This document shows, one piece after another, positions 26,357 through 32,765 of a stretch of 32,765 nt of DNA (the first letter of the stretch is position 1; the number at the start of each line of letters is the position of its first letter). The stretch is from Bacillota bacterium (GTDB taxonomy: Bacteria; Bacillota; Proteinivoracia; UBA4975; VEMY01). Both the position numbers and the translations under genes were made by a program. The notes beneath the pieces are model-generated. The model saw only the letters and a program-made list of their open reading frames with translations, ran no database searches and had not been told where the DNA came from. The stretch lies in assembly GCA_009711825.1 (NCBI GenBank), contig VEMY01000023.1, positions 1-32,765 on the forward strand. The letters run 5' to 3'.

Positions 26357-27325
26357 ATGGAGAAGATTGCTATCGGGGGCGCGGCGCTGCCCCCTTATTT
26401 TATGGCGCCAATGGCGGGAGTCACCGACAAACCTTTTCGCCAGCTGGTCAGGGAATTTGGCTGTGGCCTGACTTTTACTGAGATGATCAGCGCCAAAGCC
26501 CTGAGCTATGACAATCATCGCACTTGGAAGATGCTCGACATTGCCGGTGAGGCGCCGGTTGCTGTTCAGTTGTTTGGCAGTGAACCGGGTGTGGTTGCCC
26601 AAGCTGCCGCTGGCGCCGAAAAGCAGGGCGCGCTTTTTGTAGATATTAACATGGGATGCCCGGCCCCGAAGATTGTAAACAATGGTGAGGGGGCCGCTTT
26701 GATGCGTAATCCTGACAGGGCCAGGGCGATTGTGGCAGCCGTTAAGGAGGCAGTAACTGTGCCTGTAACTGTAAAAATCCGCGCCGGCTGGGATGAACAT
26801 TCGCGTAATGCGGTTAGTTTCGCCCGCGGACTAGAGGCGGAAGGGGCCAGTATGGTGACTGTGCATGGGAGAACACGGGAACAATTTTATAGCGGTAAGG
26901 CCGAGTGGCAGGTAATCGCCGATGTACGGCAGGCGCTTAGGGTTCCTGTGATTGGGAACGGCGACATATGGACCGGTGAGGACGCCGTGGCCATGCATCA
27001 ACATACAGGTTGCCAGGGGGTAATGGCGGCCCGTGGCGCTTTGGGCAATCCTTGGTTGTTCCGGGAAATTGCAAGTGCATTTGCCGGGCAGGGATTTAAG
27101 CGCCCTTCGGTTTCGGAACGGTTGAATTTGGCGCTTCGCCACTTTGATATGCAGCTCTCTTATCGGGGTGAGTGTATGGGAATTGTTCAGATGCGTAAAC
27201 ACCTGTCTTGGTACCTAAAGGGACTGCCTGGCGCCACCGGGATGCGCAGCCAAATAATCCGGGAAACGGACCCACAGGCCGTGCGCGCCATTCTGCTCGA
27301 TTATTTGGAACGCCTGGAGGAGTAA
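26357..27325 (+). CDS. dusB: tRNA-dihydrouridine synthase DusB
   Basis: The 322-residue FMN enzyme reduces uridine to dihydrouridine in the tRNA D-loop. It is a TIM barrel with MAPMAGVTDKPFRQLVREFG, the catalytic Cys101 in NMGCPAPKIVNNGEGAALM, VTVKIRAGW, TVHGRTREQFYSG and VIGNGDIWT. The C-terminal helical domain includes MRKHLSWYLKGLPG. ATG 26357 follows GAGAGGTG. In B. subtilis dusB lies just upstream of lysS and an rRNA operon; here dusB is also followed by greA and an rRNA operon, so broad synteny holds. Confidence 0.95.
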   Translation: MEKIAIGGAALPPYFMAPMAGVTDKPFRQLVREFGCGLTFTEMISAKALSYDNHRTWKMLDIAGEAPVAVQLFGSEPGVVAQAAAGAEKQGALFVDINMGCPAPKIVNNGEGAALMRNPDRARAIVAAVKEAVTVPVTVKIRAGWDEHSRNAVSFARGLEAEGASMVTVHGRTREQFYSGKAEWQVIADVRQALRVPVIGNGDIWTGEDAVAMHQHTGCQGVMAARGALGNPWLFREIASAFAGQGFKRPSVSERLNLALRHFDMQLSYRGECMGIVQMRKHLSWYLKGLPGATGMRSQIIRETDPQAVRAILLDYLERLEE

Positions 27326-27328
27326 TTG

Positions 27329-27367
27329 TTGTGTGCTGCAGGTAAAGACGGTATACTTAGTGTATAC
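27329..27367 (+). promoter_or_regulatory. Promoter and operator-like palindrome upstream of the HTH gene
   Basis: TTGTGT (27329-27334), 17 bp, then TATACT (27352-27357) make a plausible sigma-A promoter. GTATAC (27351-27356) is repeated after a 5-base spacer as GTATAC (27362-27367); each half is itself palindromic. The repeat covers the -10 region, where a bound repressor would block transcription. The regulator encoded immediately downstream is the obvious candidate. Confidence 0.55.
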
Positions 27368-27393
27368 AGAATTGTGCACAAGGGGTGGACGGG

Positions 27394-27933
27394 GTGGAAA
27401 TAATCCGTATTGGTGAAAAGACCATCAGCCGTTGGCAAATTGATGCTTTAATTACCAAAGTACTTGAACTGCGCAGTCAGGGCCTGTCACAGCAGGAAGC
27501 GGCACAAAAACTCTCCATCGACCGGACGTTTATCTCTCGCCTGGAGAGCATTGGCGAGGTCCGCAAGGGGCCGGATTTGGCCGTGGTTGGTTTCCCTGTG
27601 GCCAACAGGGCTGAGTTGGAGGATATCTGCCGCAAATATGGGGTGGATTGGTGGTTGTTTTTTAGCGAGAAAGAGCGCTTAGACTTTGTTGAGCAAAAAT
27701 CAGGTTTGCAACTTTTTAATGACGTCATGGACCTGTTGACCCGTGTCCGTTCGTTCTCCACAATTGTTGTCCTTGGTTCCACCAGTCGCATTAAAATAAT
27801 CGAAGCGCTTTTGGATACGCGGGTTGTGGGATTCCCAATAGGAGAATCGCCATTGACCCGGGATGTGGTCGCCGATACTAATCAATTTGAGCAGGTAATC
27901 CGGTCTCTAAGCGCAAAGGGGGGACCTAAATGA
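27394..27933 (+). CDS. HTH transcriptional regulator of unknown target
   Basis: The product is about 179 residues. Residues 10-50 hold a helix-turn-helix of the Xre/sigma-like type (LRSQGLSQQEAAQKLSIDRT, continuing FISRLESIGEVRKG). The remainder, with VVGFPVANRAELEDICRKYG, WWLFFSEKER and TIVVLGSTSRIKIIEALLDT, is an alpha/beta domain I do not recognise, perhaps ligand binding. The start is GTG 27394 by spacing from AAGGGG; GTG 27385 overlaps that RBS. It overlaps the next gene by ATGA and is probably cotranscribed with it. The palindrome GTATAC-N5-GTATAC lies just upstream, consistent with autoregulation. I believe this gene pair is conserved near dusB/greA in related Clostridia, but I cannot verify that here. 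Confidence 0.65.
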   Translation: MEIIRIGEKTISRWQIDALITKVLELRSQGLSQQEAAQKLSIDRTFISRLESIGEVRKGPDLAVVGFPVANRAELEDICRKYGVDWWLFFSEKERLDFVEQKSGLQLFNDVMDLLTRVRSFSTIVVLGSTSRIKIIEALLDTRVVGFPIGESPLTRDVVADTNQFEQVIRSLSAKGGPK

Positions 27934-28829
27934 AGCGAGTCGTGAGTATCAGTTTAGGTTCCAGTCGCAGAGATCACCAGGCCGAAGTCCAATTTAACGG
28001 GGTTCGTTTCCAGGTGGAACGCCGGGGCACCGATGGCGACATGAAAAAAATGATTGCCATGGTTTCTGAATTGGATGGAAAGGTGGATGCCTTTGGTCTA
28101 GGCGGTATTGATCTCTATGTAGGAACCCCGGGACGACGCTATATTTTTCGCGACGCCAAGAACATTGTCAAGGCAGCCAGGAAGACGCCGGTGGTGGATG
28201 GCAGCGGGCTGAAAAATACGCTTGAGCGCAACACCATCAAGTACTTGGCGGAAAAGTTGGGTTGGTCATTCGCCGAAAAAAAAGTGTTACTAATTAGCGC
28301 CTTGGACCGGTGGGGCATGGCGGAGACACTTGCCCAGTATGGGAGCAGTCTTTTGATCGGCGATTTCATGTTCACCCTTGGTTTGCCCTTTCCGATTCGA
28401 AAATTGAAGACAATTGACCGGGTTGCCCGGATTCTGGCGCCGCTCGTTGTGCAATTGCCTTTTAGTATCGTTTACCCCACAGGAAAAAAACAAGACTCCA
28501 GTGACGGTCGATTGGCCCGTTACTTTAATGACAAGGACATAATTGCCGGAGATTTTAACTATATATATAAACATATGCCCCGGAACATGGAGGGTTTGAA
28601 GTTAATTACCAACACTGTCACCGCAACAGATATCGATGAACTCCGGAGCCGGGGTGTAAAGACGTTGGTCACCACTACGCCGGCACTAAATGGTCGCTCC
28701 TTTGGCACCAATGTCATGGAGGCTGTTCTGGTCGCTTATGCTGGGCGCGACTCTGAGCTATCACCGGAAGAATATAACCGGCTGCTGGCTGAGTTAAAAT
28801 TTGTGCCGCGGGTGGAAGACCTCTCTTAG
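27930..28829 (+). CDS. Protein of the family often annotated quinate 5-dehydrogenase; function unknown
   Basis: The 299-residue soluble protein shows a probable Rossmann-type segment, KKVLLISALDRWGMAETLAQ then YGSSLLIGDFMFTLGLPFPI. Nearby are KLKTIDRVARILAPLVVQLP, VYPTGKKQ, ITNTVTATDIDELRSRGVKT and TTPALNGRSFGTNVMEA. I recall near-identical motif order in clostridial proteins labelled quinate 5-dehydrogenase, a label I regard as automatic transfer: there is no GxGxxG nucleotide motif and no shikimate/quinate genes are nearby. The N-terminus, VVSISLGSSRRDHQAEVQF, and the line FGLGGIDLYV are also distinctive. ATG 27930 overlaps the regulator stop. It may be an oxidoreductase or a binding protein controlled by the upstream regulator. 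Confidence 0.6.
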   Translation: MKRVVSISLGSSRRDHQAEVQFNGVRFQVERRGTDGDMKKMIAMVSELDGKVDAFGLGGIDLYVGTPGRRYIFRDAKNIVKAARKTPVVDGSGLKNTLERNTIKYLAEKLGWSFAEKKVLLISALDRWGMAETLAQYGSSLLIGDFMFTLGLPFPIRKLKTIDRVARILAPLVVQLPFSIVYPTGKKQDSSDGRLARYFNDKDIIAGDFNYIYKHMPRNMEGLKLITNTVTATDIDELRSRGVKTLVTTTPALNGRSFGTNVMEAVLVAYAGRDSELSPEEYNRLLAELKFVPRVEDLS

Positions 28830-28841
28830 GAGCGGTGCTTT

Positions 28842-29804
28842 GTGGACTTCGCGTTTATAAGCTGTCCGGTAACGCTGAGCCAATTGCGGCTTAGTCGCCC
28901 AGGCTTACGTTTGATCCCCGGCGGTTTGCTGTCGGGGTTAAATCGTTTTCTGCCGATAAAAGAGAAGGCAATGTTGGATGTGGCCGGTGCCCCTGGTGTT
29001 ATCCTGGAATATCCCGGGTTACCAGAATACCTGGTTGATCTTTCCCCTTCGGCAATTGAAAAAAAAGCTGTCCAGATAGGCAAAATATTAGCAGCTAATA
29101 ATATAAAAATTTTGGGTCTGGAAGATAGCTTGCAGCCGCTGGCCCCGGTAATCTGTGCAGAGCACCCGGTGCGTATACCCACTGGTTTGACGATAACGCT
29201 AGCGGCCCTGCTTGCTGTTTTTAGTAATTTTTTAAGCGAGAACACAAATTCCCGCGCCGTTATTATTAGTCCACTATCCCCGCCCGGTGCAGTTATTGCT
29301 CGTCTGTTGGCGCCTCGCTTGCGCTCGCTGGTTTTGGTTTCCAATCTACGGCCCGGCCTGAAACGACTTGCACAAAAAATTATTCAGGAAACCGGCACCG
29401 CCAGTGTACTCAGTCACTGGCATCCAGGTTTGCTGCCGGAAACCGATATAATAATTGATTTGGCTGGCCTGGATCTGTCCGAGTTAAAATCTCCAGCATT
29501 GATCTGGCAGCCATATGGCGGAAGACCACCGCAGAGCGCACGTACGCTTGGCCTTCCACTTTTGGATTTTCCGGGGGTTCCGGCTGTGCACGGCGACTTG
29601 CCGGCAGGCATTCTTCGCCCTAATTTAACTGAAGCAATATTAGTGGCCACCGGTGAACGCAGGCTATGGGCACGTAATTTTAATGAATTAACTGCCGCCA
29701 ATGTTATAACAGCCAGTAAGCAAAGCCGTGTCTGCAAGCTGCGTGTTACAGCCAGCTGCCTGGATGGATATATCCATTGGTTTCCTGCACCAATAGAAAT
29801 TTGA
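28842..29804 (+). CDS. Uncharacterised Rossmann-like protein, third gene of the cassette
   Basis: The 320-residue protein is not one I can name. Residues 115-230 read like the dehydrogenase core of acyl-ACP reductase or shikimate-dehydrogenase-type enzymes: RIPTGLTITLAALLAVFSNF, then AVIISPLSPPGAVIARLLAP, then SLVLVSNLRPGLKRLAQKI. In true dehydrogenases the second segment holds a glycine-rich GxGxxG loop; here it is PLSPPG, so NAD(P) binding may be lost. A later strand (DIIIDLAGLDLSELKSPALI) fits the usual end of such a domain. The N-terminal 100 residues may form a substrate domain. The start is GTG 28842, with TAGGAG at 28827-28832. The stop codon is embedded in the -35 box of the greA promoter. 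Cotranscription with the two upstream genes is likely. Confidence 0.55.
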   Translation: MDFAFISCPVTLSQLRLSRPGLRLIPGGLLSGLNRFLPIKEKAMLDVAGAPGVILEYPGLPEYLVDLSPSAIEKKAVQIGKILAANNIKILGLEDSLQPLAPVICAEHPVRIPTGLTITLAALLAVFSNFLSENTNSRAVIISPLSPPGAVIARLLAPRLRSLVLVSNLRPGLKRLAQKIIQETGTASVLSHWHPGLLPETDIIIDLAGLDLSELKSPALIWQPYGGRPPQSARTLGLPLLDFPGVPAVHGDLPAGILRPNLTEAILVATGERRLWARNFNELTAANVITASKQSRVCKLRVTASCLDGYIHWFPAPIEI

Positions 29805-29829
29805 CAAATTAAATCCACCGGTTTATAAT
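29801..29829 (+). promoter_or_regulatory. Consensus sigma-A promoter upstream of greA
   Basis: TTGACA (29801-29806), exactly 17 bp, then TATAAT (29824-29829): a perfect consensus promoter. The -35 overlaps the stop codon of the upstream gene. It predicts a leader of about 117 nt before greA. Confidence 0.88.
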
Positions 29830-29952: not shown

Positions 29953-30432
29953 GTGTTGAATAATAAAGAAGTTATACTAACTCCTGACGGGTTTAAGCGA
30001 CTTGAAGATGAACTTGAATTTTTGCGCACAGCCCGCCGCAAAGAGGTGGCTGAGAGGATAAAAGTTGCCATCGGCTTTGGCGATATCAGTGAGAACTCTG
30101 AATACGAGGACGCCAAGAAGGAGCAGGCCTTTGTGGAAGGACGAATCCTGACCCTGGAAAAGATGTTGCGTAACGCACGTGTTTTGGATGATGATGAGAT
30201 TACGACTGAGACTGTTAGTCTTGGGGCAACAGTAATGCTTAAAGACCTGGAGTACGACGAAGAGATTGAGTACGTCCTGGTCTCCAGCGCTGAGGCAGAT
30301 CCCGCTCAAAGTAAAATCTCCATTGAATCGCCGGTGGGTAAAGCTATTATTGGTCATCCGGTAGGTGATGTGGTGGAAGTGAACGTTCCTGCTGGAACTC
30401 TAAAATACGAAATCATGGCAATACGTAAATAA
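29953..30432 (+). CDS. greA: Transcription elongation factor GreA
   Basis: The 159-residue factor rescues backtracked RNA polymerase by stimulating transcript cleavage. The N-terminal coiled coil (residues 1-76) has [40 protein letters not shown] and [18 protein letters not shown], with the acidic tip residues in the [12 protein letters not shown] turn. The C-terminal FKBP-like domain ends [19 protein letters not shown]. Start is GTG 29953 or TTG 29956 after AAAGGAGAG (29941-29949). Length matches the family (about 158). It is followed by a terminator, so it is probably monocistronic from the promoter at 29801. Confidence 0.96.

Positions 30433-30874: not shown

Positions 30875-32765
<1,891 letters not shown>

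Follow-up and report, generated by a model that had tools for sequence, protein, structure and literature searches.

What does the small three-gene cassette between dusB and greA do? The window analysed here, 32,765 nucleotides of contig VEMY01000023.1 from a Bacillota bacterium, carries between these two genes (dusB at 26357-27325, greA at 29953-30432) three open reading frames placed head to tail on the + strand. They encode a regulator with an N-terminal helix-turn-helix (HTH) and a C-terminal alpha/beta (Rossmann-like) domain (27394..27933), a 299-aa protein labelled quinate 5-dehydrogenase, here called QDH (27930..28829, overlapping the HTH gene by 4 bp), and a third protein, ORF3 or gene 3 (28842..29804). 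For the HTH gene, the GTG at 27394 is preferred over the alternative start at 27385 on the alignment of relatives and on the profile match, which begins at 27397. greA has a sigma-70 promoter of its own at 29801..29829 on the + strand (TTGACA-17-TATAAT, 12/12 consensus match, 17-bp spacer), and therefore the cassette ends with ORF3, at 29804. Downstream of greA a 16S rRNA gene begins at 30875 (Rfam RF00177, scanned to 31200) and probably extends to the end of the window at 32765. The ORF coordinates bear out the first-pass annotation, which had described three genes in tight order between dusB and greA and no GxGxxG loop in either enzyme-like protein. Its view of an undescribed small system is supported as well, since the cassette is not described as a unit in the literature that we found. 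The answer that we favour, with little more than even confidence, is that the cassette forms the regulatory half of an autoregulated and conserved regulon for a long-chain-amine pathway, whose product is probably N-glyceroyl alkylamine lipids.

The first-pass annotation had also proposed an operator, the palindrome GTATAC-N5-GTATAC lying over the -10 box. The palindrome is exact (27351-27367, zero mismatches; expectation for the whole window, 0.28 matches with ≤2 mismatches) and an operator does seem to exist, but the reading was misplaced: the -10 box TATACT (27352..27357, + strand) contains most of the first GTATAC, the aligned position in relatives reads TAAAAT or TATAAT, and a GTATAC pair with a 3-8 nt spacer is kept in just 2 of 98 homologous upstream regions. 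The site has to be shifted by about 10 bp to include TGTGCACA, which is found without mismatch just downstream of the -10 in 85 of these 98 regions; in most cases TGnnnACA and a four-base spacer come before it. What relatives share upstream is thus TGTnnACA-N4-TGTGCACA, and the copy of this element in the window, TGTATACA-GAAT-TGTGCACA (27361..27380, + strand), overlaps the expected transcription start and ends beside the Shine-Dalgarno sequence. It scores 27.9 with the position weight matrix, the 99th percentile of the background being 11. Scanned for over whole genomes, the pattern has two exact sites in the own genome and is matched exactly in 88 of the 199 genomes of the phylum, the reversed control giving 3 matches. 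Two of the one-mismatch matches elsewhere in the own genome were checked (L113 and L116); both lie inside ORFs and are therefore taken as chance. Because the site at 27361-27380 lies upstream of the HTH gene itself, it is most simply predicted to be the autoregulatory operator of the HTH protein, which would bind there.

Where does the other exact site lie? It is found at G000:C10:105095-105114, behind a TATACT box and upstream of a gene for a fusion protein of 857-867 aa (G000:C10:105233-107803, or L117:7234-9804). In this protein a class III aminotransferase (Aminotran_3, E 2e-93) is followed by a domain of the acyl-ACP reductase (AAR) family with its GASGSIG and ACMAE motifs intact. The fusion matches PDB 4ppm at E 7e-122, its score lies under the PigE equivalog cut-off, and the curated cut-off of TIGR04058 is not reached, the own genome giving no match to this model at E ≤ 1e-12. 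Two related enzymes have been characterised: PtTamH, from the tambjamine pathway, uses glutamate to aminate fatty aldehydes and together with an acyl-ACP-forming enzyme turns fatty acids into amines (PMC9594044), and PigE, from the prodigiosin pathway, has the same parts in another order and reduces a thioester (PMC8341465). As in both, the fusion joins a class III aminotransferase to an AAR-type reductase with a GxxGxxG loop and a catalytic Cys, and its domain order is that of PtTamH. Unlike them, the genes described here belong to no secondary-metabolite cluster but to a chromosomal regulon that is conserved and has QDH and an HTH protein of its own, and the two activities are often encoded by separate genes. 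Where relatives of the reductase are encoded on plasmids of other bacteria, a class III aminotransferase gene in most cases overlaps with them or lies next to them; no QDH was found on plasmids.

Gene 3 of the cassette would normally encode a relative of the same long-chain acyl-ACP reductase. Among 14 members of the gene-3 set, 13 match TIGR04058, PigE and PF01488, and the best PDB matches of these relatives are AAR and PigE structures (PDB 6jzq, E 2e-35). They are homologous to cyanobacterial AAR (TIGR04058, PDB 6jzq) over most of their length and keep the loop and the equivalent of Cys294. They differ from it in that the partner is here an aminotransferase, no aldehyde-deformylating oxygenase being seen among the neighbours examined, and in that the window copy departs from the canonical form. 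ORF3 is an intact reading frame in the same QDH-greA slot as the canonical AAR of its relatives and matches the AAR profile A4 at E 1.6e-13 in a search of a 10-sequence set. Of 101 residues that do not vary among 12 canonical relatives it keeps 31, and it reads SPLSPPG where the GxxGxxG loop is expected and has N261 in place of the catalytic Cys; alone it gives, like the window QDH, no Pfam, NCBIfam or PDB sequence family match above noise. Judged by these residues, ORF3 is catalytically degenerate.

The loss goes together with the presence of the fusion. In fusion-bearing genomes the slot AAR has lost both motifs in 7 of 8 assessable cases, the exception being G186, which has the fusion and a slot AAR with both motifs. 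Where no fusion is present elsewhere, both motifs are kept without exception, in 21 of 21 genomes whose ORFs are complete, counted over the first 30 loci. The slot genes without both motifs are those of the own genome (G000), G131, G011, G058, G147, G160 and G192; the slot ORF is barely or not recognisable in G100, G015, G134, G061, G189 and G164, the gene is absent from G009, G185, G135, G165, G055 and G041, and in G130 it is cut by the contig end. Repeated motif loss with intact ORFs is seen at L244:5157-6047, L254:5976-7007 and L256-L272. This distribution suggests that the fusion has taken over the reductase step, and through it the window cassette is tied to an amine-forming enzyme. That degenerate slot ORFs have been left intact suggests a retained, non-catalytic role.

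What, then, is QDH? It occurs in 153 of the 199 sampled genomes of the phylum, about three quarters, at an identity of ~46-68 % for nearly all among the matches listed. About 80 residues are invariant in its relatives, and the window protein keeps 78 of 79. Its AlphaFold (AF2) model has a pLDDT of 90, and Foldseek retrieves with it two-domain Rossmann-like proteins that include AAR (6jzq, TM 0.49), FolD, dipicolinate synthase A and YdiB; a conserved DRxGMA-like motif stands at the position of the nucleotide loop. Alignment of QDH with AAR by hhalign gives a probability of 0.1 %, that is, no sequence relation, and therefore we claim a resemblance of fold alone, not homology: on its model, QDH appears to be a conserved protein with an AAR-like two-domain fold. 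Its neighbours in genomes that lack the HTH protein or AAR include no widely shared partner. In G084 and G178 (L183, L184) the order is dusB-operator-HTH-AAR-greA and QDH lies elsewhere in the genome. Second or relocated QDH copies stand beside a small ORF and an amino acid permease (L249:3434-6061, L255:426-3034); the small ORF at L249 is a protein of the SCP2 sterol-transfer family, a possible link to a lipid carrier. Outside the phylum, each of 33 Deinococcus genomes, and Thermus too, has a protein labelled quinate 5-dehydrogenase and assigned to no CDD family (PMC9425974), and if the label is a guide, this protein would be QDH.

The HTH protein accompanies QDH closely: it is found solely in genomes with QDH (126 of 126 in the sample of 199), and QDH occurs without it in 27 genomes. 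It has weak HTH_3/HTH_31 matches (HTH_3 at 22.0 bits, with a cut-off of 23), and in its AF2 model (pLDDT 87) the helices of the helix-turn-helix lie at the expected place. Its C-terminal alpha/beta domain gave no confident PDB match with Foldseek, and the profile searches made with the protein gave no match to a FapR/FabT/FadR-like regulator. Those fatty-acid regulators act through short palindromic operators at promoters of acyl metabolism. The present system resembles them in having such an operator at genes of acyl metabolism and differs in that its regulon is small and centred on amine genes.

How far does the regulon extend across the phylum? The order dusB-HTH-QDH-(AAR)-greA recurs in relatives, and the co-occurrence of the genes outside the own genome, on which the first-pass annotation had staked its proposal, is evident. 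QDH and AAR are found together in 131 genomes, QDH without AAR in 22, AAR without QDH in 4 and neither in 42 (Fisher 3e-22, with related genomes counted as independent). An operator-like site lies upstream of 18 of the 30 fusion genes examined, and another 4 come after an HTH gene that itself lies behind an operator; in G111 the HTH, QDH and fusion genes are contiguous. In AAR-less genomes, operators away from the HTH operon precede genes for an alpha-oxoamine synthase (BioF/KBL/serine palmitoyltransferase family) and a zinc alcohol dehydrogenase. The latter is present in 11 of the 22 QDH-positive, AAR-negative genomes and is nearly exclusive with AAR, which only 1 of its 12 close carriers possesses. 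Serine palmitoyltransferase and BioF-KBL enzymes are thus the counterpart of an alternative enzyme under the same operator, with the differences that here the synthase is paired with a zinc alcohol dehydrogenase and scores below the equivalog cut-offs. In G102 the operator precedes fabH-fabK (L193:3022-4992), an arrangement seen once that suggests an overlap with the control of fatty-acid synthesis. The best stand-alone aminotransferase gene of 20 genomes, most of them with a slot AAR, has no operator upstream, and therefore the amine step is tied to this regulation in part of the phylum only. Taken as a prediction from sequence, a functional link between the cassette and acyl-to-amine conversion through the shared operator is well supported.

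What might the amine be used for? Going by the title of Bale et al. 2025, as cited in PMC13274423, N-glyceroyl alkylamine lipids are reportedly dominant in several Bacillota. The phosphoglycolipids of Thermus and Deinococcus have as their third chain an alkylamine joined to glycerate (PMC3398001), the enzymes for the alkylamine chain had not been identified as of 2022 (PMC9636437), and Moorella thermoacetica contains N-glyceroyl alkylamines (PMC13274423). In our literature search no paper was found that assigns genes to the synthesis of these lipids. A Moorella thermoacetica strain (L078) has operator, HTH, QDH and AAR in order. In 14 control genomes, AAR was found at E ≤ 1e-12 just in Synechococcus elongatus, which is known to possess AAR, in Thermus composti and in Deinobacterium chartae; the curated TIGR04058 cut-off is passed by one control genome only, and the PigE-family search, which matches all 14, does not discriminate. 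To make N-glyceroyl alkylamine phosphoglycolipids, Deinococcus, Thermus and some Bacillota need a long-chain alkylamine, and AAR-type genes overlap with the producers in the few cases checked; from this we infer the link of the present gene set to the amine chain, and N-glyceroyl alkylamine is a likely end product.

In the model that we propose, the HTH protein acts as a repressor of its own operon and of the second unit through TGTnnACA-N4-TGTGCACA just downstream of the -10, and a metabolite at its C-terminal alpha/beta domain, be it an acyl compound, an aldehyde or an amine, would release (or recruit) it. AAR would convert a fatty acyl thioester to the aldehyde and the class III aminotransferase would turn the aldehyde into a long-chain amine, both activities residing, in the own genome, in the one fusion under the second operator. 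ORF3, its catalytic residues lost, would survive, if functional, as a non-catalytic partner, and QDH would catalyse or assist a step that every version of the pathway has. Among end products, the amine chain of N-glyceroyl alkylamine phosphoglycolipids would be the likeliest. The earlier suggestion of a system that senses and converts a metabolite is thereby made specific, as control of the route from acyl thioester to aldehyde to amine, with sensing kept as a presumed property of the regulator. Some observations count against the lipid-amine reading: where the alpha-oxoamine synthase is used, the product should be an amino alcohol, not a simple alkylamine, the likeness of QDH to AAR is one of fold only, and the stand-alone aminotransferases of the 20 genomes are without an operator.

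Could the cassette instead be a true shikimate or quinate system, as the label of gene 2 has it? The label is present in databases, YdiB is among the Foldseek matches of QDH, and PF01488, which matches the gene-3 relatives, bears the Pfam name "Shikimate/quinate 5-dehydrogenase". In addition, a lone aroQ lies divergent to the fusion and its operator in the own genome. Yet aroQ is no neighbour in the other 29 fusion loci, QDH matches neither PF01488 nor any other shikimate dehydrogenase model, in 25 members as in the window protein, and the gene-3 relatives score far better with AAR and PigE. We therefore regard a shikimate or quinate function as very improbable, in agreement with the first-pass annotation, which had rejected the label. 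The rejection holds for gene 2; for the gene-3 family the Pfam name does fit, and it may be from these relatives that the label on gene 2 came.

A more serious competitor accepts the same enzymes and gives them another product, such as plasmalogens or other ether lipids, a spore component, a sphingoid-like lipid or a diffusible amine. AAR yields aldehydes, the version with alpha-oxoamine synthase and alcohol dehydrogenase is similar to the start of sphingoid base synthesis, and Bacillota make plasmalogens as well (PMC13274423). However, plasmalogens have known and distinct genes of their own (PlsA; PMC13274423), and an amine lipid is favoured both by the repeated pairing with a class III aminotransferase, whether within one protein or within an operon, and by the occurrence of AAR in the two Deinococcota control genomes. 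This leaves the alternative with perhaps one chance in four. We consider it rather unlikely that the HTH protein is a general fatty-acid regulator sensing acyl-ACP or malonyl-CoA status, with the amine genes as one of several targets and QDH as a sensor partner. The fabH-fabK operator of G102 and the several genomes with QDH and no AAR would agree with such a role, but that operator was seen once, the own genome has its second exact operator at the fusion and none at fatty-acid synthesis genes, and about 80 invariant residues make QDH look more like an enzyme. That only the location is conserved, QDH being an unrelated housekeeping protein beside a regulator and a reductase, would account for the 27 genomes with QDH and no HTH gene and for QDH in other neighbourhoods; it has little probability, given that the HTH gene never occurs without QDH and that HTH, QDH and fusion form one run in G111.

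These results replace a misleading database label, that of quinate 5-dehydrogenase on QDH, and reveal a repeated change from enzyme to pseudoenzyme in the slot reductase. A bolder and distinctly tentative extension is that QDH represents a new enzyme family that acts at a committed step on the way to long-chain-amine lipids, such as the joining of amine and glycerate, with its own regulator and operator. The gene set might then be the missing N-glyceroyl alkylamine pathway common to Bacillota and Deinococcota, and the degenerate AAR of fusion lineages a retained pseudoenzyme partner of QDH. What the analysis offers for the synthesis of the alkylamine chain is a set of specific candidate genes together with an operator and a regulator, and for QDH a role that can be tested.
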